A stretch of 64,000 nucleotides of DNA from a bacterium M00.F.Ca.ET.205.01.1.1 (lineage in GTDB: Bacteria > Pseudomonadota > Alphaproteobacteria > Rhizobiales > Rhizobiaceae), in contig SRUQ01000002.1 of assembly GCA_004791255.1 (NCBI GenBank), forward strand, positions 777,210 to 841,209, written 5' to 3'. The notes below the pieces were generated by a model. The model did no database searches. It saw nothing but the letters and a program-made list of their open reading frames with translations, and had not been told where the DNA came from. How positions within the stretch are numbered: position 1 is the stretch's first letter; each line of letters begins with the position of its first letter. Positions 1,098-55,133 of the stretch are shown in pieces. Made by a program: the position numbers and the translations under genes.

Positions 1098-2747
1098 TCA
1101 GCCTTCCAGCCAGACGTTCTGGAGATCCATCTCGAAGGTCTGGTGGACGCCGTAGTTCTTCACCTTCTTGTTCGTATGGCTGTAGAGCTTCTGCCAGAAC
1201 GGCTGGATGATGACGCCGGAATCCTGCAGGATCTGTTCGACGTCCTTCATCACCTCCTTGCGCTTGGCAACGTCGATCAGCGACAGCGCCTGCTTCAGCT
1301 TGGCGTCGAAATCCGGATTGGAATAAGCCGATTCGTTCCAGGCCTCGCCGGTGCGATATCCCAGCGCCAGCACCTGGACGCCGAGCGGGCGCATATACCA
1401 GATGGTCATCGAATAGGGATATTTCGTCCAGTCGTTCCAAAAGGTCGAGCCCGGCAACACCGTGCGCTTCACCTTGATGCCGGCATCGCGCAGTTGCCCG
1501 GCGATCGCGTCGCCGGTGTTCTTCTGCCAATCGTCCTCGACGGTGATCAGCTCATGCTCAAAGTCGGCCTGTCCCGCGTCGGCCATCAGTTTCTTGGCGC
1601 CGGCGGCATCCCGCGTCTTTTTGGGAAGCGGGTAATATTCCGGGTGGATCGGGCTGACATGGTGGTTTTCACCAGCCGTGCCTCGGCCGGCATAGCCCAG
1701 TTCGAGAACCGCATTGTTGTCGACGGCCATCTGCAGCGCGTTGCGCACGCGCTGGTCGTCATAAGGCTTGTGCGTGATGTTGGTGCGGGCAACCAGCGTG
1801 GTCGCGGTCGCGACCTCCGACTTCTCCAGCCCCATCTTGTCGAGGATGTCGATGAAGTCGGCGGGCGACTCGAAATTGAGATCGATCTCGCCGGAATCGA
1901 AGGCATTCACGGTGGCGTTGAAATCGGTGCCGTAGTCGATGAACTCCACGCTGTCGAGCGGCGCCTCTCCGCCCCACCACTTGCCGTTCTCGCGACGCTT
2001 GACGACCGCCTTCTGGCCGACATCGTAAGAGACCAGCTCGAACGGTCCGGTGCCGATCGGCTTCTTGATCGGATCGGCGCCATCGGCATCGAAATTGCGG
2101 TGCACGACGAGCGCCGGATAGTCGGTGAAGTTCGGGATCAGCGAAATGTCAGGCTCACTGAGCTTCAGCTTGACGGTGTTGTCGTCGACCTTGGTGATCG
2201 CACCGTCCCTGGCTTTGCCGGACTTGGCGTCGATCAGTGCGCCGACGCGCGCGGCCATGGAGTTGCCGGAGGCGCCTTTGTCGCACCAGCGCGTCAGATT
2301 GAAGACCACATCATCGGCGTTGAAGGCATCGCCATTGTTCCACATCACGCCCTTGCGCACGTGCAGCGTATATTCGGTGGCGTCGTCATTGATGTCCCAG
2401 CTTTCCAGCAGGACCGGCTCGAAGGTAAACTGTCTGGTATAGCGCACCAGCGGTTCGAGCCAGGAGCGGGTGATGTTTGCCATCTCCACCCAGTCGTAGG
2501 TGCGCGGATCCTTCTGCGCCTTCACCGACATCGCGACATGCAGCGTTCCGCCCTTCTTCGGCTCCTCGGCCAAAGCTTGCGTCGGCGCGGCAAGGCCGAT
2601 CATGCCGTAGGCAACAGCCGTCGATGCGCCGAAGGCGCTTGCCAGCGCCAGGAACTCGCGACGATCCATGCGGCCTGCCCGTGTCTCTGCCGCCATCGCT
2701 TCGATGGCCGCCGGAACGCGGTCGCCATTGCTTCTGAAAAGCGTCAT
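1098..2747 (-). CDS. ABC transporter solute-binding protein, family 5 (peptide/opine/nickel type), Tat-exported
   Basis: A 549-residue periplasmic binding protein. Residues 29-30 are the twin arginines of a Tat signal ([10 protein letters not shown]) followed by a hydrophobic stretch ending in APTQALA. The mature chain begins with the GGTLHVA strand typical of SBP family 5 and contains [16 protein letters not shown] and [11 protein letters not shown], the usual family 5 landmarks; the length is also normal. It lies 91 nt downstream of the MttB-type methyltransferase gene on the same strand and is likely co-transcribed, which suggests the ligand is a methylated amine or a peptide/opine-like conjugate of one. 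No permease or ATPase genes are next to it, so it depends on transporter parts encoded elsewhere. The Tat route implies folding before export. Confidence 0.9.
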
Positions 2748-2793
2748 GTCTTCCTCCCTTGCTGGTTCGTTCAGGTCTGCGCCTGTCGTCTTT

Positions 2794-2856
2794 TTTAACT
2801 AGCGCTGTCGGGCTTTTTAACTAGCGCTGTCGCGTTCTTTAGCTAACGCTGTCGGG
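2794..2856. repeat. Three tandem 22-bp repeats spanning a stop codon
   Basis: Three copies of a TTAACTAGCGCTGTCGGG-like unit occur with an exact 22-bp period; equivalent bases are at 2797, 2819 and 2841. The rightmost copy contains the TAA stop codon and last codons of the MttB-type methyltransferase gene (2839-4389); the other two lie in the untranslated gap before the binding-protein gene. Each copy contains the self-complementary AGCGCT or a close variant. The rightmost copy differs at two positions near its stop codon. Confidence 0.85.
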
Positions 2857-4389
2857 CAATTTTTCCTCGCGCCGCGCGATCAAATCCTTGAGACCGTCGG
2901 CGATGCCCTCGTCGAGCTTCGGCTCCTCATAGTCGGCGAGCATGTTGCGCGCCTTCTCGCGGCCGCGCGTATCGTGATCCTTCGCGCCTTCGGCCTTCCA
3001 CTGCTCGAACGAGTTGAAATCCATGATGCTCGGCATGAAGAAAGCCTTCTCGAAATGCTCGAGCGTGTGCCGGGTGCCGAGGAAATGGCCCTGCGGGCCT
3101 ACCTCGCGGATCGCCGCCATGGCGTCCTTGAAATCGTCAAACGGCAGGCCGCCGGCATATTTGTACCAGCCGACAAGTTGCTCGCAGTCGGTGGCGAACT
3201 TCGAATAGCCGCAGGTAAGGCCCGCCTCCAGCCAGCCGGCCGAGTGCCAGATGTAGTTGGCGCCGGCGAGGATGGCGGCATGCATCAGCATGTTGGCCTC
3301 GTAGCCCGCCTGAGCATCGTTGAGCTTCGAGCCGACATGGAACCCAGACGTGCGCCATGGCAGTTTGTATTTCCGCGCCAGCGCGCCCATCAGATACATC
3401 ATCTGGGCAGCCTCCGGCGTGCCGCCCATGGGGGCGCCGGTCTTCATGTCGACCGTGACCATGAATTGGCCGTAGAGTTGCGGCGAGCCCGGACGGATGA
3501 GCTGGGTGAAGGCCACACCCGCGAGTGCCTCGGCATTGACCTGCGCGACCGCGCCGACGGCGGAAGCCGAGGTGGAGGCGCCGCACAGCGCGAACGGCGC
3601 CAGGATCAGCGGCTGGTTATGGCGCGCATAGACCCGCATAGCATCCAGCATGGTGGCGTCCCAGACCAGCGGCGAATTGCAATTGGTGATCGCCACCAGC
3701 ACCGGATTGTCGCGCACGAACTCCTCGCCGAACACGATGCCGGCCATTGCCATCGTGTCTTCCGCCCGCTCCTTGGATGTCACGATGCCCATGAACGGCT
3801 TGTCGGAATGTTTTAGCGCCGAATGGATGATGTGCAGGTGCCGCTTCGGCACCGGGATTTCCATAGGCTCGCAAATGATCGAGCTCGAGGAATGCAGCGC
3901 CGGCGCCATGTAGGCGAGCTTGTGGAAATTGTTGAGGTCGGCAAGCGTGCCGTAGCGCCTGTTGTTGTCGAGGTCGCGCACATAGGGCGCGCCGTACATA
4001 GGCACGAAGATGGAATTCTTGCCGCCGACACGGACCGTGCGTTCGGGATTGCGCGCATTGAGCGTGAACTCCGGCGGAACCTTCGCCACGAGTTCCATCA
4101 GCAATGCGCGGTCGATGCGCACGCGCGTCTCCCGGACATCGGCGCCGGCAGCCTTCCACATGGCGATAGCCTCGTCGTCACGGAATTCGCAGCCCACCTC
4201 CTCGAGGATCTTGAGCGACTCCTCGTGGATCAGTTCCACCGCCTCGTCCGGAACCATCTGGTAGACCGGGATGTTGCGGACCAGCGTCGGGAACGAGGCA
4301 ATCGGCGCGCCCCTCATCGCCTTGCGCCCGAGGCGACCGCCGCCCCGGCGGTGAGCAGTGTCGGTCAATTCAGCGGCCGGCGCGTTCAT
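2839..4389 (-). CDS. Trimethylamine methyltransferase family protein (non-pyrrolysine MttB/MtgB type)
   Basis: A 516-residue member of the MttB superfamily, which transfers a methyl group from a quaternary or tertiary amine to a corrinoid protein. Recognisable stretches include HEESLKILEEVGCEF near residue 55, the central SSSSIICEP and ITNCNSPLVWD strands of the TIM barrel, and the C-terminal GPQGHFLGTRHTLEHF, all characteristic of the family. The frame has no internal amber codon, so this is the pyrrolysine-free branch, whose characterised members demethylate glycine betaine and related betaines. I cannot see which substrate this one uses. It is divergent from a LysR gene and followed by a binding protein. 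No cognate corrinoid protein gene is adjacent. Confidence 0.9.
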   Translation of the reverse strand: MNAPAAELTDTAHRRGGGRLGRKAMRGAPIASFPTLVRNIPVYQMVPDEAVELIHEESLKILEEVGCEFRDDEAIAMWKAAGADVRETRVRIDRALLMELVAKVPPEFTLNARNPERTVRVGGKNSIFVPMYGAPYVRDLDNNRRYGTLADLNNFHKLAYMAPALHSSSSIICEPMEIPVPKRHLHIIHSALKHSDKPFMGIVTSKERAEDTMAMAGIVFGEEFVRDNPVLVAITNCNSPLVWDATMLDAMRVYARHNQPLILAPFALCGASTSASAVGAVAQVNAEALAGVAFTQLIRPGSPQLYGQFMVTVDMKTGAPMGGTPEAAQMMYLMGALARKYKLPWRTSGFHVGSKLNDAQAGYEANMLMHAAILAGANYIWHSAGWLEAGLTCGYSKFATDCEQLVGWYKYAGGLPFDDFKDAMAAIREVGPQGHFLGTRHTLEHFEKAFFMPSIMDFNSFEQWKAEGAKDHDTRGREKARNMLADYEEPKLDEGIADGLKDLIARREEKLPDSVS

Positions 4390-18294: not shown

Positions 18295-19341
18295 TCAATA
18301 TTGCGCAATCGGCGTCCAGATCACGTCCTCGATCTTCTGGGCACCCGTTGCCAGCATCGCCAGCCGGTCGAAGCCGACCGCGATGCCGCTGGCCGGCGGC
18401 ATGATGGCAAGGGCCGCCAGAAAATCCTCGTCGAGCGGATAGCGTTCGCCGTAGATGCGTTCCTTCTCGTCCATCTCGATGATGAAACGCCGACGCTGCT
18501 CGTCGGCGTCGGTCAGTTCGCCGAAGCCGTTGGCAAGCTCGACGCCGCAGCAATACAGCTCGAAACGCTCGGCGACGCGCGGGTCCCTGGCACTCGGCCG
18601 GGCCAGGGCCGCCTCGGCAACGGGGTATTCGCAAAGAATGGTCGCCCGTCCCTGCCCGAGGAGCGGCTCGACCTTTTCCACCATCACGCGGCTGAACAGG
18701 TCGCCCCAGTTGTCGTCAGGCGCGGTGCGCAGGCCGGCCTGGGTCAAGGCCGCGAACAGGGCGTCGCGGTCCGTGCCGCCGTCGGCGGCCACGGTGGCGA
18801 GCAAATCGATGCCGGCGTGGCGGGTAAAGGCGTCCGCCACCGACAGCCTTTCCGGCTCGGCAAAGGGGTCGCAGTCGCGGCCCCGGAAGGAGAAGCGCGT
18901 GGTTCCTGCTCTTGTCGCCGCCAGCGCCAGCAAGGCCGCGCAATCCTGCATCAAGCTCTCATAGTCCTCACCGACCCGGTACCATTCGAGCATGGTGAAT
19001 TCGGGATGGTGCAAGGGGCCGCGTTCGCGGTTGCGGTAGACCGGGCCGAAGGAGAAGATCTTGCTTTCTCCTGCGGCAAGCAGCTTCTTGCAGGCGAATT
19101 CCGGCGAGGTGTGCAGATAAAGCGGCTCGCGCTGCCCGTCCGGCCTGACCGCCTCGGTGGCAAAGGCCGCCAGATGCGCCTCATTGCCGGGCGAGACCTG
19201 CAGGGCCGATGCCTGCACCTCGATGAAATCGCGGCGGCCGAACCAGTCGCGCAAGGCGGCGGCAAGGCCGTTGCGCAGCATCAGGCGCGGTCGGCGGTCG
19301 GCATGGACATGCGGCGTCCACCAGGGCGAAGCCGCGGTCAT
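18295..19341 (-). CDS. epmA: Elongation factor P lysine ligase EpmA
   Basis: EpmA (GenX/PoxA/YjeA) is a class II lysyl-tRNA-synthetase paralogue that attaches lysine or beta-lysine to elongation factor P. The 348-residue protein lacks the anticodon-binding domain and consists of the catalytic core only: SPGNEAHL, FSFGPVYRNRERGPLHHPEFTML (motif 2 region), CEYPVAEAALARPS, and GIAVGFDRLAML (motif 3). The chosen start is the ATG at 19339-19341. It is divergent from efp, the gene for its substrate, 114 nt away, which strongly supports the assignment. The partner aminomutase gene epmB is not nearby. Confidence 0.95.
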   Translation of the reverse strand: MTAASPWWTPHVHADRRPRLMLRNGLAAALRDWFGRRDFIEVQASALQVSPGNEAHLAAFATEAVRPDGQREPLYLHTSPEFACKKLLAAGESKIFSFGPVYRNRERGPLHHPEFTMLEWYRVGEDYESLMQDCAALLALAATRAGTTRFSFRGRDCDPFAEPERLSVADAFTRHAGIDLLATVAADGGTDRDALFAALTQAGLRTAPDDNWGDLFSRVMVEKVEPLLGQGRATILCEYPVAEAALARPSARDPRVAERFELYCCGVELANGFGELTDADEQRRRFIIEMDEKERIYGERYPLDEDFLAALAIMPPASGIAVGFDRLAMLATGAQKIEDVIWTPIAQY

Positions 19342-19455
19342 CGATGCGCTTCGGTTCGCTGAGGGGGCTGGCGGTTCGAGCCAAGATGCGCTAGGCCCGC
19401 ATCCAGCGCCGCACAAGCCGGCAAACGCCAGTCAACTCTCGCAGGATAAAAAACC

Positions 19456-20025
19456 GTGGTGAAAGTCATCGCCAGTTCGCTCCGCAAAGGCAATGTCGTC
19501 GACAAGGACGGCAAGCTTTATGTGATCCTCTTTGCCGAAAACATCCATCCGGGCAAGGGCACGCCGGTCACGCAGCTCGACATGCGCCGCATCGGCGACG
19601 GGGTGAAGGTTTCGGAGCGCTACCGCACCACCGAACAGGTGGAACGCGCCTATGTCGAGGAACGTGAACACACCTTCCTCTATGCCGACGGCGAAGGCTA
19701 TCACTTCATGAACCCGGAAACCTATGACCAGGTGGCGGTGACGGAAGGCGTGGTCGGCGACGCCGCGCCCTATCTGCAGGAGGGCATGCCGGTGCAGGTG
19801 TCGCAGTTCAACGGCATCGCGATCGCGCTGGTGCTGCCGCAGCGCGCCACCTTCGAAGTGGTCGATACCGAGCCGACGACCAAGGGCCAGACGGCGTCGT
19901 CTTCCTACAAGCCGGCCGTGCTTTCGAACGGCGTGCGCACTGCCGTGCCGCCGCACATCGCCCCCGGTACCCGCGTGGTGGTGATGACCGCTGATGGGTC
20001 GTATGTGGAGCGTGCGAAGGACTGA
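19456..20025 (+). CDS. efp: Elongation factor P
   Basis: EF-P rescues ribosomes stalled at polyproline. The 189-residue protein has the normal three beta-barrel layout. The start is a GTG at 19456 (or the next GTG at 19459), giving [14 protein letters not shown]. The modification loop reads HPGKGTP with lysine at position 34, the residue that EpmA modifies. The divergent neighbour is epmA. Several proline-rich or polyproline-containing proteins occur in this window (for example 11136-11735), for which EF-P would matter. Confidence 0.97.
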
Positions 20026-20164: not shown

Positions 20165-21154
20165 ATGCGGATCAAGATCGTCGGAACCGGGCGCGCGGTG
20201 CCCGCTCAATGCTTGACGTCAAGTAGTCTCGACGAGCGGCTGGGCCTTGGCCAGGGGCAGCTAGAGGCCGCCACCGGTGTCGTGGAACGCTATGTCTGCG
20301 AGACCGAATCGCAGGTCGATCTGGCCTGTGCGGCGGCGCGCCTGGCGCTGGCTGATGCAGAGGTCGAGCCCGGCGCCGTCGATCTTGTGATTGGCGGATG
20401 CGGTGTGCCCTACCAGCCGCTGCCTTCGACGGCCCCGCTGGTGATGCAGCGCCTTGGGCTGGCCGACGGATCGGCCGCGGCCTTCGACGTCAACAGCACC
20501 TGCCTTGGCTTTCTCACCGCCTTCGAAACCGCCGCCCGCATGATCGAGGCCGGCCAATGCCAGACGGCGCTTGTGTTCTCGTCGGAGGTCGCCTCGCGCG
20601 CCCTGCCCTGGAAAGAACAACCCGAGATCGCCGCTTTGTTCGGCGATGGGGCCGCGGCCGCGGTGCTGCGCAAATCAGCATCTGGAGAGGGCGAAGTGGC
20701 GGCCACGCTGATGCGAACTTTTCCGTCGGCCTATGACGCCTGCGGCATTGGCGCCGGCGGCACTCGCTTCGACTTCCACCACCAGCCGGAGGAGTTCTCC
20801 CGCCATGCCTTGTTCCATATGAACGGCAAGGAGTTGTTCCGGGTGACCTCGCGCCACTTCAACGGCTTCGTCGGCGAGCTTTTGCGCCGGGCCGGCTGGC
20901 AGCCGGGGGATGTCGACCTCGTGGTGCCTCACCAGGCGAGCCCGTTCGCGCTGGCCCATATGGCGCGGCAAACCGGCTTTGCGATGGAAAGGCTGGTCGA
21001 CATTGCGGCGCATTACGGCAACCAGATCGCGGCCTCCATTCCCTTCGCGCTCGATATCGCGCGCAAGCAGGGTCGCGTCGAACCAGGTGCCAGGGTGCTG
21101 TTCCTCGGCACCTCGGCCGGCGTCTCCTTTGGCGGCATGGCGCTGGTGGCATGA
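20165..21154 (+). CDS. 3-oxoacyl-ACP synthase III family (FabH/OleA-like) condensing enzyme
   Basis: A 329-residue type III ketosynthase. The catalytic triad is visible: Cys113 in NSTCLGF, His256 in PHQAS and Asn286 in HYGNQIAAS. The N-terminal GTGRAVP and C-terminal GARVLFLGTSAGVSFGGMALV complete the thiolase fold. The primary fatty-acid FabH is normally found with plsX; here the gene instead opens a six-gene set with an SDR, metallo-hydrolase, adenylate-forming enzyme, acyltransferase-like protein and Rieske oxygenase. It therefore probably performs a decarboxylative or head-to-head (OleA-like) condensation in a specialised pathway. The next gene starts inside its stop codon (ATGA). Confidence 0.9.
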   Translation: MRIKIVGTGRAVPAQCLTSSSLDERLGLGQGQLEAATGVVERYVCETESQVDLACAAARLALADAEVEPGAVDLVIGGCGVPYQPLPSTAPLVMQRLGLADGSAAAFDVNSTCLGFLTAFETAARMIEAGQCQTALVFSSEVASRALPWKEQPEIAALFGDGAAAAVLRKSASGEGEVAATLMRTFPSAYDACGIGAGGTRFDFHHQPEEFSRHALFHMNGKELFRVTSRHFNGFVGELLRRAGWQPGDVDLVVPHQASPFALAHMARQTGFAMERLVDIAAHYGNQIAASIPFALDIARKQGRVEPGARVLFLGTSAGVSFGGMALVA

Positions 21155-22170
21155 GCATGAAGCGCGTGCTCGTCACCGGCGCCAGCGGCTTCCTTGGCGG
21201 CCATGTTGTGGCGCGGCTGGCGGTTTCTGGCGTGCCGGCATTGGCGCAAGGCCGCGACGCCAGGCGATGCGAGGCGCTCGAAGCTGCGGGGTATGCGGTG
21301 GCGAGGCTTGACCTGTCGCGCCCGTTCGATGCCTCGCTCCATCCCTGGCTTGGCGAGGTCGACGCGATCATCCACTGCGCGGCGCTTTCGGCGCCGTTTG
21401 GCTGGCTGGCGGATTTCGAGGCTGCCAATGTGACCGCGACGCAAAACCTGGTGGCCTTCGCCCACCGGCAAGGGCTGCGCCGCTTCGTTCATATCTCCAG
21501 CCCTTCGGTCGGTTTTGCCTTTCGCGACCAGCTCGGCATCACCGAAGACAGTCCCCTGCCCGCGCCGGTCAATCACTATGCCCGCACCAAGCAGCAAGGC
21601 GAGAAAATCGTGCTGGCGGCGCCCGACATCGGCCCGGTTGTGCTCAGGCCGCGCGGCATCTACGGCGCCGGCGACCGGGCGCTGCTGCCGCGCCTGCTGC
21701 AAGCAGCGCGGCAGCGAGCGCTGCCGCTGTTTCGCGACGGCAAAGCGCGCATCGACCTTACCCATGTCGACGATGTCGTCGACGCGGTGCTGGCGGCGCT
21801 TGATGCCGGCAGCGTGGCCGAGCGCCAGGTGTTCAATATCTCCAGCGGCGAAGTGCTGCCGGTGCGCCGCATCGCCGAACAGGCCTGTGCGCGCGCCGGC
21901 GTCAAGGCACGCTGGCGCAAGATGCCGCTTGGCCCGGCCATGCTGGCGGCAGGCCTGATGGAAACGGTGGCGGTGCGCCTGCCGGGCCGGCCCGAACCGC
22001 CGGTGACCCGCTACGGTCTCGGCCTCTTCGCTTACGCGCAGAGCCTCGACATCGCCAAGGCCAGGGATATTCTCGGCTGGACGCCGAAAGTGTCCTTCGA
22101 CGAGGGGCTGGATCGCACCTTCGCAGAGGCTGGCGAAGCTTCAGGCGCAAGAGTTGGGGCAACAGCTTGA
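21151..22170 (+). CDS. NAD(P)-dependent epimerase/dehydratase, extended SDR (3-beta-HSD/OleD-like)
   Basis: A 339-residue extended short-chain dehydrogenase/reductase. Residues 10-17 are the nucleotide-binding GASGFLGG, Tyr143 and Lys147 are the catalytic YxxxK (HYARTKQQGE), preceded by ISSPS at 116-120, and RPRGIYG follows. The C-terminal part (LDIAKARDILGWTPKVSFDEGL) is the usual end of the family. The closest described logic is OleD, which reduces the beta-keto product of OleA; placement right after a KAS III gene (4-nt overlap) supports reduction of its product. Substrate unproven. Confidence 0.9.
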   Translation: MSMKRVLVTGASGFLGGHVVARLAVSGVPALAQGRDARRCEALEAAGYAVARLDLSRPFDASLHPWLGEVDAIIHCAALSAPFGWLADFEAANVTATQNLVAFAHRQGLRRFVHISSPSVGFAFRDQLGITEDSPLPAPVNHYARTKQQGEKIVLAAPDIGPVVLRPRGIYGAGDRALLPRLLQAARQRALPLFRDGKARIDLTHVDDVVDAVLAALDAGSVAERQVFNISSGEVLPVRRIAEQACARAGVKARWRKMPLGPAMLAAGLMETVAVRLPGRPEPPVTRYGLGLFAYAQSLDIAKARDILGWTPKVSFDEGLDRTFAEAGEASGARVGATA

Positions 22171-22991
22171 AAATCGCCTTCGCCAACAGCGCCTGGGTCG
22201 GCGCCGCCGAAAGGCTGATCCTGCGCGGCGGCGGCTGGCAGAAAATCCGGCTGCGCGTCCGCTACGGGCTGATCATTCACCCCCAGGCCGGTCCGGTGCT
22301 GATCGATACCGGTTACACGCCTGATGTGACCACAGGCGCCGGACGCGGCACGATGCTGCGCCTCTATGGCGCGGTGCTCAGGCCGGAATTGGTCGAGGCC
22401 GAGCAGCCCGTGCCGGTGCTGGCGCGTTTTGCCCTGACGCCGCGCGATGTCGGCACTGTCATTGTCACGCATTTTCACGCCGACCATATCTCCGGCCTGT
22501 CGCTGTTTGCCAATGCGCGCTTCATCGCCAGCGATGCCGCCTGGTTGCGGCTGAAGGCGCGGACCGCCCGGCAGAATCTACGCCATGGCGTGTTCACCGA
22601 GCTTTTCCCCGCCGATTTCGAGGCCAGGCTCGACGGGCTGTCGACGATGAAACAGGTCCCGCCGCGCGGCGACATCCCCGGCGGGGCCGATCTGTTCGGC
22701 GACGGCAGCGTGATCGCGGTCGATCTGCCGGGCCATGCCGACGGCCAGTTCGGGCTGTTGTTCCCCGAGATGGATCGATGGCTGCTTTATGCCGTCGATG
22801 TGCAATGGCTGTTCAAGGCACTGGTCGAGAACCGCACGCCGGGCTACCCGGCGCGGCTCTTGGCCGAGGATTTCGCCGCCATCGATCGAACCAGCGCAAT
22901 GCTGCGCCGCTTCCTGGCGGCCGGCGGCGAGGTGATGTTCTGTCACGATCCGGAGCCGACGCCATACGATCTAGAGCCAGCGGCCGGATGA
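22167..22991 (+). CDS. Metallo-beta-lactamase-fold hydrolase
   Basis: A 274-residue protein of the metallo-beta-lactamase fold with the zinc motif HFHADH at residues 102-107, an earlier VLIDTGY strand, LPGHADGQFG as the third metal segment and a C-terminal FCHDPE. The start is a TTG that overlaps the stop of the SDR gene by 4 nt. N-acyl homoserine lactonases and thioesterases share this layout; in this cluster it may hydrolyse a thioester, lactone or lactam intermediate. It is translated together with the adjacent genes (the next one begins within its stop codon). Confidence 0.88.
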   Translation: MKIAFANSAWVGAAERLILRGGGWQKIRLRVRYGLIIHPQAGPVLIDTGYTPDVTTGAGRGTMLRLYGAVLRPELVEAEQPVPVLARFALTPRDVGTVIVTHFHADHISGLSLFANARFIASDAAWLRLKARTARQNLRHGVFTELFPADFEARLDGLSTMKQVPPRGDIPGGADLFGDGSVIAVDLPGHADGQFGLLFPEMDRWLLYAVDVQWLFKALVENRTPGYPARLLAEDFAAIDRTSAMLRRFLAAGGEVMFCHDPEPTPYDLEPAAG

Positions 22992-24250
22992 CCGGGCTCG
23001 GCGAAGCGATCCGCTCGTTTGCGCTCACTCTGTGGGTGTCACGCAGGAGCCGTGAAAACTTCGAGCGCTGGCAGGCGCGCGCCCTGCGGCGCTGGCTCGA
23101 CCGCGACCTGCCGCTGGCGCCGTTCTATGGCAAGGCGCCGAGCCATCTCGGCGATCTGCCGGTGACCGACAAGGCGTTGCTGATGGCGAATTTCGAACGC
23201 TTCAATAGTGCCGGCGTTTCGGCCAGGGACGCGTGGGCGGCGGCAACCGGCGACGGCCGCCTTGGCGCGCTGACCGTCGGCGCCAGCACCGGCACCTCGG
23301 GCAATCGCGGCCTGTTCGTCATTTCCGAAACCGAGAAGTACCGCTGGCTCGGAACCATCCTGGCGAAAACGATTCCCGACCTGCTGTGGCGCCGACAGCG
23401 CGTGGCGGTGATCCTGCCGCAGAATACCGGCCTTTATGACAGCGCCCGCCAATCGAGCCGCCTCGACCTGCGCTTCTACGACCTGACGCTGGGGCCGGAG
23501 CATTGGCGCCCAGCCCTCGAGGCGTTCGCGCCGACGGTGATCATCGCCCCACCCAAGATTTTGCGGCATTTCGCGACCGAACGTTTCGGGCTTTCGCCGT
23601 TGCGTGTTTTCAGCGCCGCCGAGACGCTCGATCCAGTCGATCGTCCTGTCATCGAAGCGTTCTTCGGACGCCGGCTCGACCAGATCTACATGGCGACCGA
23701 GGGGTTGTTCGCGGTCACCTGCCGGCATGGCGGCCTGCACCTGGCCGAGGATTCCATCTTCTTCGAATTTGAACCCGCCGGCGACGGCCTGGTGACGCCG
23801 CTGGTTACCGCTTTCCGCCGCCAGACCCAGATCATGGCGCGCTACCGGATGAATGATCTGCTGCGCCTGTCGGCCGCGCCATGCCGTTGCGGCTCGCCGC
23901 TGCGTACGGTTGTTGAAATCGTCGGCCGCATGGACGATGCCTTCCGTTTTGTCTCGTCTCAGGGACCAGTCCTGATCACCCCCGATATCCTGCGCAATGC
24001 AGTGCTGAAGGCGGATCGGCGCATCGACGACTTCCGCCTGATCCAGACGGCGCCTGATAGGGTCGAGTTGCGCCTCAACCTTGAACTCCCGGACGATGCC
24101 GCGCAGGCCGCCCTGGAGGCGGTGCGGGTGCTGCTCGCCTTGCGCCAGGCAACCGCCGAGGTCGAACCGGTGCGCTCGCCCATGCCGCTGGAAATCGGCC
24201 GCAAGCTGCGCCGTGTCGAATGCCGGCTGCCCGCGGAGACAACCCAGTGA
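22988..24250 (+). CDS. Putative adenylate-forming enzyme (CoF/F390 synthetase-related, PaaK-like)
   Basis: A 420-residue protein starting at the ATG at 22988, four bases before the end of the previous gene. It resembles the PaaK/F390-synthetase-related branch of adenylate-forming enzymes (TIGR02304-like, about 430 residues): TVGASTGTSGNRGLFV is the phosphate-binding loop, VFSAAETLDP and QIYMATEGLFAVTC form the core, and RYRMNDLLRLS followed by CRCGSPLRTV ends the large domain. It should activate a carboxylate as acyl-AMP, perhaps to load or cyclise the product of the KAS III/SDR pair. Substrate unknown. Confidence 0.85.
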   Translation: MTGLGEAIRSFALTLWVSRRSRENFERWQARALRRWLDRDLPLAPFYGKAPSHLGDLPVTDKALLMANFERFNSAGVSARDAWAAATGDGRLGALTVGASTGTSGNRGLFVISETEKYRWLGTILAKTIPDLLWRRQRVAVILPQNTGLYDSARQSSRLDLRFYDLTLGPEHWRPALEAFAPTVIIAPPKILRHFATERFGLSPLRVFSAAETLDPVDRPVIEAFFGRRLDQIYMATEGLFAVTCRHGGLHLAEDSIFFEFEPAGDGLVTPLVTAFRRQTQIMARYRMNDLLRLSAAPCRCGSPLRTVVEIVGRMDDAFRFVSSQGPVLITPDILRNAVLKADRRIDDFRLIQTAPDRVELRLNLELPDDAAQAALEAVRVLLALRQATAEVEPVRSPMPLEIGRKLRRVECRLPAETTQ

Positions 24251-25395
24251 GCCGACCCTCGGTCGCAGCCACCAATCAGGACCCGCAAGCGGACCGGGTC
24301 GAAAACGATCCGCGCAAGGTCGAGGCTTTCGCGGAACTCTTCAATGCGATGCCGGTGCGCGACCTCATCGCCAACCTGACCGTCCGCGTCGAGCCGTTCG
24401 AGATTGCCGGCCGCGCCTTTCCGCTGACGCTCAACGATGCTGCAGAGGCGCCGAACTGCTACATCTGTTGCCCCTCCAGCGCCTATATCGACTATGCGAT
24501 CGACGAGACCCGCAACTTCGCTTCGAATCCCTTTCTGCAAAAGGCGATCCGGGCGCTTGTCGGCCTCTGTGCGCCGCTGGTGAATGCGAGCGGTCTCGAT
24601 CATCAGGTGCAGGTCAACAACTGGCTCTATTCAACCAATCCGGTGCCGCTGCTCGACCGCGCCTCCATCAAGGTGATGCGCGCGGATTTGACAACACGAC
24701 TTCCCGATCGCGCCATCGTCATCCGCTCGCTGAACGAGATTGCAGATCCCGCGACCATCGCGGCACTCAAGGCGGAGGGATTTCGCATGCTCGCAGCGCG
24801 CCAGGTCTACATCTTCGCCGACCGCACCGCCGCACCGCCGATGACGCGCGACATGAAACGCGACCGCGCCCGGCTGCGCGCGACACCGCTGCGTGTCGTC
24901 GGCGATGCCGATTTCACGGAGGCCGACTATGTCAGGAGCCAGGAGCTCTACGACATGCTCTACCTCAGGAAATACACGCCGCTCAATCCGCACTACACGG
25001 CGCGCTATATCGGCGAGATGCACCGGCGCGGTATCTTGCAGCTTGCCGGCTTGCGGGACGAGGCTGGGCAACTCGTTGCCGTCACCGGGCTGTTCGAGAA
25101 CGGAGCGACGCTGACCCAGCCGATCGTCGGCTACGACACCGGCCTGCCGGTCAGCGACGGCCTCTACCGAATGGCGATGGCGATGGCGCAGGACCACGCT
25201 ACGGCGCGCGGCCTGTTCTTCAACATGAGCGCCGGCGCGGCTGATTTCAAACGCCGGCGCGGCGCCGTTCCGGCCATCGAGTACAACGCCTGCTATGTCC
25301 AGCATTTGCCACTCCGCCAGCGCCTCGCTGTGCGGACAATGGAATATGTGCTGGCGTGGATCGGCATACCGCTGCTTCGGAGATTCGAATTGTGA
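24247..25395 (+). CDS. GNAT-like acyltransferase of unknown specificity
   Basis: A 382-residue protein from a GTG at 24247 overlapping the previous stop (GTGA); an in-frame ATG at 24220 is possible. The N-terminal half contains a Cys-rich NCYICCPSSAYIDYAIDE and the C-terminal half (from about residue 230) looks like a GNAT domain: LQLAGLRDEAGQLVAVTGLF, IVGYDTGLP, then the helix LYRMAMAMAQDHATARG and the late strand SAGAADFKRRRGA. I infer acyl transfer from a CoA or carrier thioester to an amine. I recognise no named family. It lies between the adenylate-forming enzyme and the Rieske oxygenase of the cluster. Confidence 0.7.
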   Translation: MSRPSVAATNQDPQADRVENDPRKVEAFAELFNAMPVRDLIANLTVRVEPFEIAGRAFPLTLNDAAEAPNCYICCPSSAYIDYAIDETRNFASNPFLQKAIRALVGLCAPLVNASGLDHQVQVNNWLYSTNPVPLLDRASIKVMRADLTTRLPDRAIVIRSLNEIADPATIAALKAEGFRMLAARQVYIFADRTAAPPMTRDMKRDRARLRATPLRVVGDADFTEADYVRSQELYDMLYLRKYTPLNPHYTARYIGEMHRRGILQLAGLRDEAGQLVAVTGLFENGATLTQPIVGYDTGLPVSDGLYRMAMAMAQDHATARGLFFNMSAGAADFKRRRGAVPAIEYNACYVQHLPLRQRLAVRTMEYVLAWIGIPLLRRFEL

Positions 25396-26387
25396 GCAAG
25401 TCCGCGCGGAAAGACTTTTGGCAGGCGGTGGCGCTGTCAGCCGATGTCGGCACCAAGCCACGGCGGATCCTGTTCGAGGGCTCGCCGGTTGTGCTGTTCC
25501 GTTCGGACAAGGGCATCGCGGCGCTGTTTGACCGCTGCGTGCACCGCCTGGTCGAACTGTCGACCGGCAAGGTCGTCAATGGCGAGATCGAGTGCCCCTA
25601 TCATGGCTGGCGCTACGATGGCCAAGGCCTCTGCACCGCCATTCCCGGTCATGTCGGCGACATGCCCCGCTACCGCGTGCGCCGCTACGGCGCCATCGAA
25701 CGCGATGGCGTCGTCTTCGTCGCGGCGGGAACGCCGGAGGGCGAGCCGTATCTCCACTGCATGCAGGGCCAGGATGTGATCGTGCGGCGCGTGCGTTCGT
25801 CGACGCAATCGACCGTGGTGGACGCGGCCGAAAACATCCTCGACGCCACCCATACGCATTTCACGCACAAGGGGCTGCTGCGCGGCCTGAGTGCCAGGCG
25901 GCATCTGGTGCGGGTCGAGGTGAACGGCGGCGAAGGCTGGGTCGAGGCCTGCTACACCGGCGAGGAGCGCCAGCAAGGGCTGATCAGCCGGCTGCTGGAG
26001 GGCGAACGGACGAAAACCATCGGCCGCTTCCGCCATCCCGGCATCGCCGAACTGGAATATTGGGGCAAGGATGGATTGGCACTGGCCACGACGTTCCATC
26101 TGCGCCAGGCAGGTGAAGACACCGTCGAGGGCGTCGGCTGGCTCATCGGCCCGCGCCAAGGCTGGCTCGGCCATCTCAAGGCGCTCGCCTTCAAGCCGCT
26201 CTTCAACATCGCTTTGGCGCAGGACCGCAAGGTGCTGAAATCGGCAAGCGACAATGCCCGCCATCCACCGCATGCCGCGGCCGCGATCGGGCCGCTGGAT
26301 TTCCTGCGCCGCGACATCGCGGCCATCATGGCCGGCGAAATGCCGCCTGCCGCGGCAACGCCACGTGTGCATCAGATCGAGCTTTGA
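25392..26387 (+). CDS. Rieske non-heme iron oxygenase
   Basis: A 331-residue oxygenase subunit starting at a GTG (25392) overlapping the previous stop by 4 nt. The N-terminal Rieske domain has Cys49-x-His51 and Cys68-x2-His71 (CPYHGW), and the catalytic mononuclear iron site is visible as DATHTHFTH, residues 151-159, with Asp151, His154 and His159 or neighbouring His. The size fits the vanillate demethylase/KshA-like class of single-subunit oxygenases that need a separate reductase, which is not encoded nearby. It probably hydroxylates or oxidatively tailors the cluster product. It converges with the ATP-grasp gene (16-nt overlap of the ends). Confidence 0.92.
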   Translation: MSKSARKDFWQAVALSADVGTKPRRILFEGSPVVLFRSDKGIAALFDRCVHRLVELSTGKVVNGEIECPYHGWRYDGQGLCTAIPGHVGDMPRYRVRRYGAIERDGVVFVAAGTPEGEPYLHCMQGQDVIVRRVRSSTQSTVVDAAENILDATHTHFTHKGLLRGLSARRHLVRVEVNGGEGWVEACYTGEERQQGLISRLLEGERTKTIGRFRHPGIAELEYWGKDGLALATTFHLRQAGEDTVEGVGWLIGPRQGWLGHLKALAFKPLFNIALAQDRKVLKSASDNARHPPHAAAAIGPLDFLRRDIAAIMAGEMPPAAATPRVHQIEL

Positions 26388-27532
26388 AGCGGTCCGTTCC
26401 ACTCGATGTCGCGCGTCGAGGCGGCTTGCAGGCTGATGCGCTGGCGCAGCGCCGTCCCGGCGATCTCGGCCAGCGCCCGCCACTGTGCTCTTTTGGGCGC
26501 GGGGTCGTCCGGCCAATCGAGCAGTTCGTCGGCATTGCGCATCGCATGGCGGAAGTGTCCTACCCGGCCGGATCGCATGGCCGCGGCCAAGCCGTAGATC
26601 CACATGGCAAGCCGCACCGTCTGAGGCCGGTCGATGTCCGGCTTCACTTCGCCACCACCCAGCAGAGCAGCCGTGAAGGCCTGCGGATCGCGGAAGAAAT
26701 GCAGGCCGCTGACGGCGCGGGGATTGCACTCCAGCGGCAGCACGGAGCCGTCCTCTTGCCGCATCAGGTCGAAAGAGATCTGGCCGGTCCAGCCGGTGCC
26801 GGCGACGAAGGCCTCGACGAAATGGCGGGCGGCGGCATCCTCGACCCGCTCGAACCAGATGCCGGCGCCCTTGCCGGCGCGGTAGCGTGAACGATAGAGC
26901 GCCAGCGCCTTGAGCTTGCCGTCATTGGCCAGCGCATAGGCGCTGATTTCATCGCCGGCGACGAAATGTTGCGCCACCCATGGCGCCGCTGCCGAAGGCC
27001 TGATGGCATCGAGGACTGTGGGCGACGGTCGCAACAGCACATGGTTGGCAAAACGCGACCAGACCGGCTTGAACACCAGCGCTCCCGCATGGCCGCGCAC
27101 GGCTTCGATGTCGTCGCCGGACTGCAGCAGCGTCGTTTCCGGCACGGCAAGGCCGAGACTTTGCGCCAGGCGGATGAACGCATGCTTGTCGTGAACCCGG
27201 GTCAGCAATTCCATATCCGGCGCGAACAGGCGTGCCGGCACGGTCCCGTCACGCCATAGCTGTCCGAGGTGGAAAACCTCTTCGCAGGTCGGGATAACCA
27301 GGTCGACCCCCTCACTGCGAATGAGAGCTTCCACCGCCCGGGCATAGGCCTGCGGCGCAAAACGCGGCGGCGGCAGGCGGTGATAGGAAGCGCAGGCGGC
27401 ACTCGCCGCGGCGATCGGGCGGGCCGGGCTGTCAGCCAAGATCACCCGCAGACCGGCGCCGTGCAGCAGGCGCGCCAAATGCAGCGCCACCGGAGCCCGA
27501 GCACCCGTAACGAGCACCGTGCCGGCGCGCAT
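26372..27532 (-). CDS. ATP-grasp ligase-like protein
   Basis: A 386-residue protein with an N-terminal Rossmann pre-ATP-grasp domain (GTVLVTGARAPVALHLARLL) and an ATP-grasp core: VFKPVWSRFANHVLL as nucleotide-binding strand, a GDEISAYAL strand near residue 190, and QISFDLMRQEDGS followed by LECNPRAVSG as the Mg-binding motif (Glu, Asn). Such enzymes join a carboxylate to an amine or thiol via acyl phosphate. It faces the Rieske gene and ends inside it, so it may belong to the same pathway even though it is on the other strand. Substrates unknown. Confidence 0.82.
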   Translation of the reverse strand: MRAGTVLVTGARAPVALHLARLLHGAGLRVILADSPARPIAAASAACASYHRLPPPRFAPQAYARAVEALIRSEGVDLVIPTCEEVFHLGQLWRDGTVPARLFAPDMELLTRVHDKHAFIRLAQSLGLAVPETTLLQSGDDIEAVRGHAGALVFKPVWSRFANHVLLRPSPTVLDAIRPSAAAPWVAQHFVAGDEISAYALANDGKLKALALYRSRYRAGKGAGIWFERVEDAAARHFVEAFVAGTGWTGQISFDLMRQEDGSVLPLECNPRAVSGLHFFRDPQAFTAALLGGGEVKPDIDRPQTVRLAMWIYGLAAAMRSGRVGHFRHAMRNADELLDWPDDPAPKRAQWRALAEIAGTALRQRISLQAASTRDIEWNGPLQSSI

Positions 27533-31331: not shown

Positions 31332-31886
31332 TCAGGCGGCCTCGATGAAGCGGATGACGGTCTCGCCATAGTTGCGCTCGTCGAGCACGGAAAAGCCGGG
31401 TCCAGGCTCGAACAATGCTGCCGCGGCCTCCTCGACCACGCACAAAGCACCGGGGCGCAGCCAGCCGCCGGCCCTGGCCGACTGCAGGGCCCGCTCGCCA
31501 AGACCCTTGCCATAGGGCGGGTCGGCAAAAACCAGGCCGAACGGCGCCAACGTGCCCGCATCGCCAAGCCCCGCGGCATCGCGGCGAAAGATCTTGGTGC
31601 GGCCGGTCAGGCCGAAAGCTTCGACATTGTCGCGGATCAGGCCGCGGCCTTCCGCCGACTCCTCGATGAAGACGCCATAGGACGCGCCGCGCGACAGCGC
31701 TTCCAGGCCGAGGGCGCCGGTGCCGGCGAACAGGTCGAGCACGCGAGCGCCCTGCAGCCGGTCAGCAAAGCGGTGCGCCAGCACATTGAAGACCGCCTCG
31801 CGGGTGCGATCGGTCGTCGGGCGGATGGCGCTGCTGCGGGGCGTCGCCAGCGGACGCCCGCGAAACTCACCACCAACGATCCTCAT
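31332..31886 (-). CDS. rsmD: 16S rRNA (guanine(966)-N(2))-methyltransferase RsmD
   Basis: RsmD methylates G966 of 16S rRNA in the 30S subunit with SAM. The 184-residue protein has [16 protein letters not shown] at the start, [15 protein letters not shown], the SAM-binding [19 protein letters not shown] and the catalytic DPPYGKG. Its ATG overlaps the stop of the pseudouridine synthase gene by 4 nt, an arrangement common in alphaproteobacteria and consistent with joint rRNA modification. Confidence 0.96.
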
Positions 31887-33964
31887 TTCGTCCTGGGACC
31901 CTTGGGGCCGCCGCGCGGCCGCTCGCCACCACCGTCCGGACGCTCGCCACGCGGCTTGCCGAACGGTTTTGCACCGCCTGGCTTGCCGGCGGGCTTGCCA
32001 TAGGACGGCTTGAACGACGCCTTGCGCGCCTTGTTCTCGGCCGCCTTGGCAGCATCCGCCTCCGCCCTGCCCTTGCCGATCGGCCGGGCTCCCGGCGCCA
32101 TCCAGACATTGGCCTTGCGCTGGCCGGGCGGCTCGATCGGGCGCTGCTCGCGCTCGGATTTCTTGCCGCCGCCACGCGGTTTGTCACCGAAGCCGCCGCG
32201 CGGCTTGTCGCCAAAATTGCCACGCGGCTTATCGCCAAAGCCGCCACGTTCGGGCCTTGGGCCGCGATCGCCAAAGCTCTTCTCCGGCCTCTCGCCTCTG
32301 TCGGGACTTGTCGACAGTTTGCCCAGCGCTTCGTCGCGGCTGCCCTCGCGGCGCTTGCGGTTCTTGATCAGCCCGCCCTCGCCGATCGGACGGCGATCGA
32401 CTCCATCGCGCGCAAATTTCGGCCGCTCGGGCTCCGGCTCGCGGGTCTCGGTGCGGCGCACCGGCTTGTTGGAAAACGGCTTGGTGATCTCGGCGTCGAA
32501 ATTGGCGCCGGACTCCTCGACCAGGCGTTCGCCAAGCTGATCGCGCAGCACCCGACCCTTGACCTCCAGCACGTGGCCTTCCGGCAGGTCCTCGAGCTGG
32601 AACGGGCCGTAGGAGATGCGGATCAGCCGCGTCACGTCGAGGCCGAGCGCGCCGAGGATGTTCCTGACCTCGCGGTTCTTGCCTTCGCGCAGGCCGATCG
32701 TCAGCCAGGCATTCGAGCCCTGCTCGCGGTCGAGGCTGGCCTCGATGGCACCGTAGAAGACGCCATCGACGGCGATGCCCTCGCGCAGGCCGGCAAGCGC
32801 GCTTTCCTCGACCTTGCCGTGAACGCGCACGCGGTAGCGGCGCAGCCAGCCGGTCGCCGGCAGTTCGAGCACCCGCGACAGGCCGCCATCATTGGTGAGC
32901 AGCAGCAGGCCCTCGGTGTTGATGTCGAGCCGGCCGATGGTCATCAGCCGTGGCAATTCGGCGGGCAGCACGTCGAAGACGGTCTTGCGGCCCTCGGGAT
33001 CGCGGTTGGTGGTGACGACGCCGGCCGGTTTGTGGAAAAGGAACAGACGCGTGCGTTCGATCGGCGGAATTTCCATGCCGTCGAGATGAATGATGTCACC
33101 GGGCATCACATTGAAGGCTGGTGAGGCCAGCGCCCGGCCATTGACCTTGACGCGGCCGGCCGCGATCAGTTCCTCGGCGTCGCGGCGCGAGGCAAGGCCG
33201 GCGCGTGCCAGCCGCTTGGCGATCCGCTCGCCGGCTTCCTCGGTTGCCTCCGCCGGCCGCGGCCGCGGCTTGAAGCCGCCCGACGCGCCCTGGGGACGAT
33301 CGCCGAAATCACGCTTGGGTCTGTCGCCGCCGAAGTCACGCTTGGGGCGATCCGCGAAGTCACGTTTCGGGCGGTCACTGAAATCGCGCTTGGGACGGTC
33401 GAAACGCCTTTCGCCGCCTTCGGCAGCTGCCGCAGCCGGACGATCGCCGCGCGGGGCATAGGGCTTGCGCGGACCTTCGCGCTTTTCATAGGGCTTGCGC
33501 TCGCCTCCGGCCGCCATTGGGCGGTCGCCACGCGGCGCGTAGGGCTTGCGCGGGCCTTCGCGCTTCTCATAGGGCTTGCGTTCGCCCTCGGCAGCCATCG
33601 GGCGGTCGCCACGCGGCGCGTATGGCTTGCGGGGCCCTTCGCGTTTCTCGTAAGGCTTGCGCTCGCCTTCTGCAGCCATCGGGCGGTCGCCGCGTGGTGC
33701 ATAGGGCTTGCGCGGGCCTTCGCGCTTCTCGTAGGGCTTGCCCTCGGAACGCGGCCCCTTGCTGAAGGGCTTTTCGCCACTCTTGAAGTCACGTTTCGGC
33801 CGCTCACCCTCGGTGGCCATCGGCCTGTTACCGCGCGGTGCGTAGGGTTTCTTGGCGCCGAAGGATGGCTTGCCACCCCTGTCGCCTCGCGGACCCGCAG
33901 TCTTGCCTGGGCCTTTTTGGCCTGGCCCTTTTGCGCGGGGGGATTTCCTGTCGTTGTCGTCCAT
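31883..33964 (-). CDS. rRNA pseudouridine synthase (RluB/RsuA family) with long repetitive basic N-terminus
   Basis: A 693-residue protein from the ATG at 33962-33964 (MDDNDRKSPRAKG). Residues 1-240 are a disordered, Arg/Lys/Pro/Gly-rich tail containing four copies of a 27-residue repeat (KPYEKREGPRKPYAPRGDR core) and several DRPKRDF units. An S4 RNA-binding domain follows (IAKRLARAGLASRRDAEELI), then the catalytic domain with GRLDINTEGLLLLT (catalytic Asp near residue 346) and the family end EGKNREVRNILGALG. A second basic tail of about 180 residues closes the protein. It isomerises a uridine of 23S rRNA (U2605 in RluB). The catalytic part is normal; the tails are unusually long. Confidence 0.9.
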   Translation of the reverse strand: MDDNDRKSPRAKGPGQKGPGKTAGPRGDRGGKPSFGAKKPYAPRGNRPMATEGERPKRDFKSGEKPFSKGPRSEGKPYEKREGPRKPYAPRGDRPMAAEGERKPYEKREGPRKPYAPRGDRPMAAEGERKPYEKREGPRKPYAPRGDRPMAAGGERKPYEKREGPRKPYAPRGDRPAAAAAEGGERRFDRPKRDFSDRPKRDFADRPKRDFGGDRPKRDFGDRPQGASGGFKPRPRPAEATEEAGERIAKRLARAGLASRRDAEELIAAGRVKVNGRALASPAFNVMPGDIIHLDGMEIPPIERTRLFLFHKPAGVVTTNRDPEGRKTVFDVLPAELPRLMTIGRLDINTEGLLLLTNDGGLSRVLELPATGWLRRYRVRVHGKVEESALAGLREGIAVDGVFYGAIEASLDREQGSNAWLTIGLREGKNREVRNILGALGLDVTRLIRISYGPFQLEDLPEGHVLEVKGRVLRDQLGERLVEESGANFDAEITKPFSNKPVRRTETREPEPERPKFARDGVDRRPIGEGGLIKNRKRREGSRDEALGKLSTSPDRGERPEKSFGDRGPRPERGGFGDKPRGNFGDKPRGGFGDKPRGGGKKSEREQRPIEPPGQRKANVWMAPGARPIGKGRAEADAAKAAENKARKASFKPSYGKPAGKPGGAKPFGKPRGERPDGGGERPRGGPKGPRTK
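33440..33765. repeat. Four 81-bp tandem repeats inside the pseudouridine synthase gene
   Basis: Equivalent bases recur at 33480, 33561, 33642 and 33723, an exact 81-bp period (27 codons). The unit encodes a basic segment with EKREGPRKPYAPRGDRP. Because the copies are near-identical in DNA, the number may vary between strains by slippage or recombination while keeping the frame. Confidence 0.9.
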
Positions 33965-33987
33965 GTGGCCTTTGTCCGTTTGCGCTG

Positions 33988-34091
33988 CTACAGCGTGGCG
34001 CATCCCAGGGACGCGCAACGAACGCTGTAGCACTTTTGATTTGGCGCATGATCATTTCCGAAAACCGTACCCGATTTTCGAGGTTATGCGC
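33988..34091. repeat. Palindromic intergenic repeat (composite)
   Basis: Two adjacent imperfect palindromes occupy the space between two divergent genes. The first has 8-bp arms CTACAGCG (33988-33995) and CGCTGTAG (34023-34030). The second (34044-34091) runs GCGCATGATCATTTCCGAAAAC to GATTTTCGAGGTTATGCGC and matches the layout of the elements at 38549 and 62005: outer arm, short A-run or T-run inner arm, CC/CAC spacer. Such elements are common in Rhizobiales intergenic regions. The tadA promoter must lie within or right beside it. Confidence 0.7.
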
Positions 34092-51969: not shown

Positions 51970-52005
51970 GCATCGAGGCTCGCCATGGCGCCAGGGGGAC
52001 AGACA

Positions 52006-53793: not shown

Positions 53794-53807
53794 GAGCCGC
53801 CCGCCGC

Positions 53808-55133
53808 ATGCAGACCAGTGCCGAGCCACTCGCAGCCCCCCAATCCACCGAGCCCTATAGTCGGGTCATCGTCAGGGCTGCGCTTTGGCTGGCCTTCCTC
53901 GCGCCGTTCTTCTACTCGACCTACGGCTTCGCCAACTGGCTGGCTTCGACGCGCGGCCATGTCGGCAGCATCGTGTTCTCCTGGGAGCACTCGGTGCCGT
54001 TCGTCGCCTGGACGATCGTGCCTTACTGGTCGATCAACCTGTTCTACGGCCTGTCGCTGCTGCTCAACGACAGCCGCCAAGGGGTCGACCGGTTGGCCGG
54101 CCGGTATCTCACGGCGCAGATCGTCGCCGTCGCCTGCTTCATCCTGTTTCCGCTTGCCGCGACCTTCGTGCGGCCCGCGACGACCGGCCTGCCGGGCTTC
54201 CTGTTTGCCGTGCTCGGCGGTTTCGACAAGCCGTTCAACCAGGCGCCGTCGCTGCATATCGCGCTCTTGGTGATCATCTGGGATCACTGGCGCCAACGCC
54301 TTGCCGGCCCACTGCTGGTGCTCTGGCACGTCTGGTGCTTCCTAATCGGCGCCTCGGTGCTGACGACGTGGCAGCATCACTTCATCGACATCCCGACCGG
54401 GGCGCTGCTCGGGTTTTTCGCCCTGTGGCTGTTTCCCGCCAAGGGCGAATTGCCGTTCGCCGGCTTTCGCCTGACCGGGAACAGCAAGGCCCGGCGGCTT
54501 TCGCTCTCCTACGCGCTGGGCGCTGCGCTGACGCTGGCCGGGGCCGTCATCGGCGCTTTCTTTTCCGCTATCGCGCTGTTGCTGCTATGGCCCTCTCTGG
54601 CGCTGGCCATCGTCGCCTTCGCCTATGCCGGCGCCGGCGCCAAGGTGTTCCAGAAGACGACGGACGGCCATGTGTCGCTGGCAAGCCGCGTCCTGCTCTG
54701 GCCCTATCGGCTGGGCGCAAGGCTGAATGTCCTGGCGTGGACGCGCCAGCTGCCGCCGGTCGTGGCGGTCACCGATGGCGTCTTCCTCGGGCGTTTTCCC
54801 GCGGCTGGCGAAGCCAACAGTTTCGGCACGGTGATCGATCTCGCCGCCGAACTGGAGCGGCCACGCGGCGCCAACGGCCGCTGGGTGAGCCTGCCGATGA
54901 TCGACCTGCTGCAGCCGCCACCGGAGCTGCTCGACAAGGCGGTGGCGGCGATCGAGCCGGCGCGCCGGCAAGGCACAGTGCTCGTCTGCTGCGCGCTCGG
55001 CTTCCAGCGCAGCGCCACCGTCATCGCCGAATGGCTGGTTGCTTCCGGCCGTTCGCACACACCAGTGCAAGCGCGGAAGAAGCTCGCCGCATCCGGACGG
55101 CCGGTGCATTTCCAGAGCGGTGACCCCGCATGA
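53808..55133 (+). CDS. ynbD: PAP2-dual specificity phosphatase fusion, YnbD-like
   Basis: A 441-residue membrane protein (E. coli YnbD is 430) starting at the ATG at 53808, 14 nt after ynbC. The N-terminal half has several helices and the PAP2 signature parts QAPSLH near residue 145 and HHFIDIPTGAL near 190. The C-terminal 150 residues are a dual-specificity phosphatase domain with GRFP, VIDLAAE and the CALGFQRSA loop (Cys-x5-Arg-Ser, Cys near residue 395). Thus two independent phosphatase sites are present. A DSP-type enzyme of mitochondria (PTPMT1) dephosphorylates phosphatidylglycerophosphate, a suggestive parallel. Its end overlaps the next gene by 4 nt. Confidence 0.9.
   Translation: MQTSAEPLAAPQSTEPYSRVIVRAALWLAFLAPFFYSTYGFANWLASTRGHVGSIVFSWEHSVPFVAWTIVPYWSINLFYGLSLLLNDSRQGVDRLAGRYLTAQIVAVACFILFPLAATFVRPATTGLPGFLFAVLGGFDKPFNQAPSLHIALLVIIWDHWRQRLAGPLLVLWHVWCFLIGASVLTTWQHHFIDIPTGALLGFFALWLFPAKGELPFAGFRLTGNSKARRLSLSYALGAALTLAGAVIGAFFSAIALLLLWPSLALAIVAFAYAGAGAKVFQKTTDGHVSLASRVLLWPYRLGARLNVLAWTRQLPPVVAVTDGVFLGRFPAAGEANSFGTVIDLAAELERPRGANGRWVSLPMIDLLQPPPELLDKAVAAIEPARRQGTVLVCCALGFQRSATVIAEWLVASGRSHTPVQARKKLAASGRPVHFQSGDPA

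Follow-up and report, generated by a model that had tools for sequence, protein, structure and literature searches.

A conserved gene cluster predicted to build a two-tailed lipid with exchangeable head groups

Seven intact genes, designated A to G, exactly fill positions 20165-27532 of the DNA analysed here, a 64,000-nucleotide stretch of contig SRUQ01000002.1 from a Mesorhizobium-like host (the window). Enzyme families, conserved residues and predicted structures point to a lipid-biosynthesis cluster in which A to D would make a two-tailed β-hydroxy acid backbone, and E to G would likely supply a head group of amino-acid type and oxidise it. We give this reading a probability of about 0.45. 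A to D form a real unit: they occur together in 122/130 loci, and chance association is excluded because the gene set is conserved in other phyla. An earlier account made from the letters alone (the sequence-only reading) had described an uncharacterised biosynthetic cluster, its product possibly a lipid or signal, a view that would fall if the genes belonged to a known, named pathway or rarely occurred together. The gene classes it had assigned are supported, and the motifs it had named in A, B, C and F lie at the residues given. The genes are regularly found side by side, and searches of open-access PMC text turned up neither a named pathway nor a publication on the cluster. A lipid-like product is still the best reading.

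Conservation of A to D and their neighbours

Genes A to F lie on the forward strand and are joined by five successive 4-nt stop/start overlaps (A/B ATGA, B/C TTGA, C/D ATGA, D/E GTGA and E/F GTGA). The last two assume GTG starts at 24247 for E and 25392 for F, which were preferred over the longer open reading frames listed. Gene G is convergent to F and overlaps it by 16 nt. Promoter and terminator scans gave signals at chance level or below.

Co-occurrence was scored in 130 loci carrying gene D, and the unit was counted as complete when A, B and C lay within 9 kb of D. Eighty loci came from the 96 named-genome relatives found by a scan with D, and seven from a survey of the family, for which 11/30 matching genomes were fetched and L038-L041 were dropped (D 25-26% identical or no match, no A to C). 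Nine of ten phylum-survey loci were used, the tenth being the window's own genome, together with one from a class survey and 6, 3 and 10 new loci from three other orders. Thirteen loci hand-picked from 43 plasmid records and one E. coli chromosome completed the sample, and the window flanks (L042-L043) were left out. Near copies that apparently represent the same genome or locus were kept (L032/L117, L037/L092, L118/L191 and L135/L155). Six of the eight loci without a complete unit appear to be cut by contig ends (L032/L117, L054, L080, L099 and L103), and L195 has a distant D. The last, L137, is Pseudomonas amygdali plasmid pMPPla107, which has D and a weak G-like match only. On another large plasmid, pBASL58 of Pseudomonas sp. 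Leaf58 (L138), homologues of A, B and C-D are scattered among hypothetical genes.

The A to D core is present in Alpha-, Beta- and Gammaproteobacteria, Bacillota and Fusobacteriota. The usual order is A-B-C-D. In relatives from Hyphomonadaceae, Caulobacter and Sphingomonas, D mostly faces F-E-G-C-B-A; the order is B-C-D-A in Fusobacterium, A-G-B-C-D-E in Paenibacillus and A-B-C-D-G-E(-F) in Paraburkholderia. The distribution of D is patchy. It was found in 57/146 genomes of the window's genus and, above the TIGR02304 cut-off, in 7/151 genomes of its family. At an E value of 1e-30 it was found in 10/398 genomes sampled across the phylum and in 2/240 of the class (the window's own genome is counted in all four figures), and in 9/197, 4/194 and 11/150 genomes of three other orders.

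The best matches of the window's genome, in the scan of named genomes with D, are from Mesorhizobium. In the Mesorhizobium loci A to G are constant and the flanking genes vary, which suggests that the cluster was transferred as a block. An EpmA-like lysyl-tRNA synthetase homologue, identified from its open reading frame, lies divergent from an elongation factor P (EF-P) gene at 18295-20025 of the window. Both were rejected as cluster parts: they flank the cluster in three loci only (L044, L045 and L096), and the gene set is kept at different sites. A patatin gene, beside the cluster in L045 and L096 only, was likewise rejected.

The unit is accompanied by exchangeable decorating genes. Representatives were assigned with Pfam and the remaining loci with profiles made from the families initially found; counts include near copies. 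A decorating gene lies near A to D in 114/122 loci, a single kind in 111 of these and two kinds in L094, L119 and L120; none was recognised in the other eight. The kind seen in the window consists of E (GNAT) and/or G (ATP-grasp), with or without F (Rieske). Elsewhere there is a sulfotransferase (six loci, with Ruegeria and Paracoccus among the carriers), an EryCIII-like glycosyltransferase (five loci), or FA_hydroxylase with PAP2 (eight loci, six of them also with a desaturase). A DUF3419 gene adjoins A to D in ten loci, two assigned by Pfam and the rest by profile, and this type is seen in Halocynthiibacter and in Ahrensia relatives; the window has none. We take DUF3419 to be the family of BtaA, the betaine-lipid synthesis protein. 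The simplest reading of this exchange is a common backbone whose hydroxyl or carboxyl is free and would accept different head groups.

E. coli carries its own version. In CFT073 (L155:6001-12882, also L135) genes of the PAP2, FA_hydroxylase and desaturase families come after A to D, at a site between narI and the tRNA-Tyr/purU region. Of 5,426 complete E. coli genomes, 672 match this 6.9-kb stretch and 671 have 80% or more of its length, including JJ1887, which we take to be an ST131 strain. The nearest model for the FA_hydroxylase-family protein is OlsE, at 66.6 bits, far below the cut-off of 475. The narI-purU interval of K-12 MG1655 holds only ychS, rttR/tpr and tRNA genes. RssA, a 30% identical patatin relative encoded near the E. 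coli cluster, was rejected as a part of it, since K-12 has RssA without the cluster there.

The core enzymes A to D

Gene A (20165-21154) encodes a ketosynthase of 329 amino acids of the β-ketoacyl-acyl carrier protein synthase III (KAS III) type. Proteins from 47 hand-picked loci and the window (48 in all) were placed in a tree of 59 KAS III proteins. The catalytic triad Cys113/His256/Asn286 is present in 48/48. The A proteins form one group with MxnB and CorB (support 100/96), their closest characterised relatives among those compared. A separate group (98/97) holds three FabH structures together with the four further KAS III-like proteins that the window's genome encodes, and two proteins of PRK09258, a family that we take to include OleA, also stand apart. 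The exact position of MxnB and CorB has weak support (88/60): they lie adjacent to the A proteins or among them, near the Bacillota and Fusobacterium members.

Gln84 and Ser259 are found in 48/48 A proteins, as in MxnB/CorB; the three FabH proteins lack Gln84 and have Asn at position 259, and one of the two PRK09258 proteins has Gln84 and one has Ser259. Position 316 is Thr in 44 and Ser in four, Thr in MxnB/CorB, and neither in the three FabH proteins. At the position of the OleA glutamate, 48/48 A proteins have Ile or Leu, MxnB and CorB have the equally non-acidic Val, and 2/2 PRK09258 proteins have Glu. The FabH Trp/Arg pair is mostly missing from A (Trp in 15/48, Arg in 10/48). The best model match of the window protein is NF005541 (PRK07204 KAS III) at 291.8 bits, below the cut-off of 402; the E. 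coli (333.4) and Fusobacterium (303.1) proteins are also below it, and the Paenibacillus protein exceeds it (424.9). The PRK09352 KAS III subfamily model gave 217 bits against a cut-off of 249. Housekeeping FabH was rejected as an identity for A, with TIGR00747 at 183.4 bits vs a cut-off of 292.1 and the tree position apart from FabH.

MxnB fuses two β-keto acyl chains in vitro (PMC5724707). Kresovic et al. (PMC4578411) report that PpyS no longer made photopyrones once E105 was changed to Ala; MxnB and CorB carry Val94 at that position, and it was proposed that a β-keto substrate may not need the base. The same study placed MxnB and CorB inside the FabH clade, a placement not reproduced in the present small tree. 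Because A groups with MxnB/CorB, has residues in common with them and lacks the OleA glutamate, the chemistry of MxnB leads us to predict that A fuses two acyl chains, one probably a β-ketoacyl thioester. It is unlikely to catalyse the OleA-type reaction with plain acyl-CoA as substrate. The surroundings differ: MxnB and CorB end large polyketide synthase/nonribosomal peptide synthetase lines and give α-pyrones, whereas A stands beside a reductase, a metallo-hydrolase and a PaaK-like enzyme, with no polyketide synthase.

Gene B (21151-22170) encodes an extended short-chain dehydrogenase/reductase (SDR) of 339 amino acids, a predicted β-keto reductase. Residues of B, C and F were counted in relatives scoring more than 150 bits and above a minimum length; Tyr143/Lys147 of B are conserved in 102/102. 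The nearest named family is OleD (2-alkyl-3-oxoalkanoate reductase), in line with the resemblance drawn from the sequence, although NF042422 gave 180.5 bits, far below its cut-off of 580 (241.2 for the Paenibacillus B). Gene C (22167-22991) encodes a metallo-beta-lactamase-fold hydrolase (PF00753) of 274 amino acids with an HFHADH motif. It is nearest to N-acyl homoserine lactone lactonases, and each of the seven metal-site residues examined is conserved without exception (105/105 relatives). It is predicted to be a thioesterase or lactone hydrolase.

Gene D (22988-24250) encodes an adenylate-forming enzyme of 420 amino acids. It belongs to TIGR02304 (262.3 bits vs a curated cut-off of 251.9), in agreement with its earlier assignment to the PaaK/F390 branch, and scores only 13.9 bits against PF00501, with a cut-off of 29.9. 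A P-loop and what we take to be A5, A7, A8 and A10-type motifs are present, and the C-terminal Lys406 is invariant (21/21). Matching over the whole length of its predicted fold, together with the motifs, indicates a PaaK-fold adenylate-forming enzyme. OleC was not among the 50 matches listed for D, which is no proof of a difference. TIGR02304 is called 'F390 synthetase-related protein', a name for which no tested function was found in the literature searched. PMC2649909 guesses at the attachment of glycerol by an 'F390 synthetase', not necessarily of TIGR02304, whose gene lies in the fatty-acid cluster of a different bacterium. The mutant table of a kiwifruit-canker study (PMC9823363) lists a transposon insertion in IYO_RS29540, annotated as coenzyme F390 synthetase and likewise not necessarily of TIGR02304.

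Genes E to G and other features of the window

Gene E encodes a double-GNAT protein of 382 amino acids (24247-25395, GTG start) or 391 amino acids from the ATG at 24220. The best matches of its predicted model, across both domains, are aminoacyl-tRNA-dependent transferases. The two-domain GNAT fold is common to E and MprF, FemX and Sbb17 over 241-270 residues, but identity is only 9-15%, and E has no membrane flippase part. E gave no match in family searches, had no Pfam match at an E value of 10 and fell outside the FemAB and DUF2156 families; its relative in L182 scored 21.9 bits against PF13480 (GNAT), just below 22. E is thus predicted to work like the aminoacyl-tRNA-dependent transferases without being a member of their families, and its donor is perhaps aminoacyl-tRNA. 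The 'GNAT-like acyltransferase' of the sequence-only reading gives way to a predicted aminoacyltransferase. Because E resembles the FemX/MprF/Sbb17 class, the head group may be aminoacyl.

Gene F (25392-26387) encodes a Rieske non-heme iron oxygenase (PF00355) of 331 amino acids from the GTG start, and its best PDB match is DdmC. The CxH/CxxH motif is found in 81/82 relatives. In the mononuclear-iron motif N-x2-D-x2-H-x4-H, the Asn and first His are found in 82/82 and the Asp and second His in 81/82. Gene G (26372-27532, reverse strand) encodes an ATP-grasp ligase of 386 amino acids. It is PRK06849-like, at 335.9 bits against NF005315 (cut-off 406), and scores 19.5 bits against ATP-grasp_3 (cut-off 23.2, exceeded by a Shinella relative at 26.7). 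Its N-terminus is weakly PylC-like, below the cut-off of PylC-like_N.

Three other regions were noted from their open reading frames. At 51985-57167 a hydrolase-methyltransferase fusion, a PAP2/phosphatase fusion and a CdsA-like cytidylyltransferase lie close together, perhaps as a second unusual lipid operon. A reading frame with repeated KPYAPRGDRPMAAEGERKPYEKREGPR-type units precedes an apparent pseudouridine synthase at 31883-34033. At 1098-4389 a trimethylamine-methyltransferase-like frame adjoins a solute-binding-protein-like one.

Competing explanations and the proposed pathway

The four functional classes of A to D match the Ole enzymes one for one: a thiolase-fold ketosynthase, an OleD-like SDR, an adenylate-forming enzyme and a hydrolase. 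The cluster might therefore be a β-lactone or olefin pathway assembled by non-orthologous replacement, with A as OleA, B as OleD, D as OleC and C, which resembles lactonases, as OleB. We consider this improbable. OleC belongs to PF00501 and OleB is an α/β-hydrolase, whereas D is PaaK-like, C has the metallo-beta-lactamase fold and no α/β-hydrolase match was found among the other six proteins in family searches. The OleA glutamate is absent throughout, and an olefin would leave no target for the sulfotransferase, glycosyltransferase and DUF3419 enzymes, decorating genes being a further point of difference. Membership of the Ole pathway was rejected on the glutamate, the OleD cut-off, PF00501 and OleB. 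The sequence-only reading was right that OleB is missing, but the Ole logic that it drew is not supported in detail, with A grouping instead with MxnB/CorB; the analogy holds at the level of enzyme classes only.

A single-chain product is rather unlikely. A would act like FabH with malonyl-acyl carrier protein, B would give a β-hydroxyacyl chain and C, whose lactonase-like fold could serve as a thioesterase, would release it; D, E and G would then yield an N-acyl or aminoacyl amide that is secreted as a signal or surfactant. In favour of this, the triad of A is that of FabH, and A scores 217 bits with PRK09352, though below the cut-off. Its place with MxnB/CorB and the mostly missing Trp/Arg pair argue otherwise, and the four further KAS III-like genes of the genome all fall with FabH in the tree. 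Ordinary fatty acid synthesis moreover already yields 3-hydroxyacyl chains. It is distinctly improbable that the product is a small signal of the pyrone or butenolide type, like those of the photopyrone and myxopyronin pathways, that C would open or recycle as a lactonase. The nearest characterised relatives of A in the tree do make α-pyrones (PMC5724707), C is lactonase-like, and a TetR-family gene lies near seven A to D loci. Photopyrones and pseudopyronines, however, were obtained by expressing the ketosynthase alone or with genes for precursors (PMC4578411), which would leave B, D and the exchangeable decorators unexplained, and the window cluster has EF-P and patatin as neighbours and no regulator.

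In the lipid pathway that we favour, A would load one acyl chain on Cys113 and condense it with a second, probably β-ketoacyl, carrier-bound chain, as MxnB does. B would reduce a ketone, C would free the acid from its thioester or open a lactone, and D would adenylate the carboxyl on the way to an ester, amide or thioester. E would transfer an amino acid to the lipid, with aminoacyl-tRNA as a possible donor, G would form a further ATP-driven amide bond, and F would hydroxylate or desaturate the product. Other bacteria would finish the same A to D backbone by attaching sulfate, a sugar or a BtaA-like, homoserine-type group, or would use a hydroxylase and desaturase instead.

More tentatively, A to D may be the backbone factory for a whole class of bacterial lipids that has gone unrecognised. 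These would be mycolate-like β-hydroxy acids with two tails, formed by the fusion of chains, spread across phyla by horizontal transfer and fitted with interchangeable head groups (an aminoacyl group from tRNA, sulfate, a sugar or homoserine). The sulfotransferase, glycosyltransferase, DUF3419 or GNAT/ATP-grasp genes beside the same backbone genes predict mass differences that lipidomics could see. If this is true, well-studied bacteria, many E. coli among them, harbour a lipid class that has escaped notice, and its marker gene is masked by the generic name 'F390 synthetase-related protein'. Such a lipid would then be made by one in eight of the E. coli strains with complete genomes, CFT073 and ST131 strains included.

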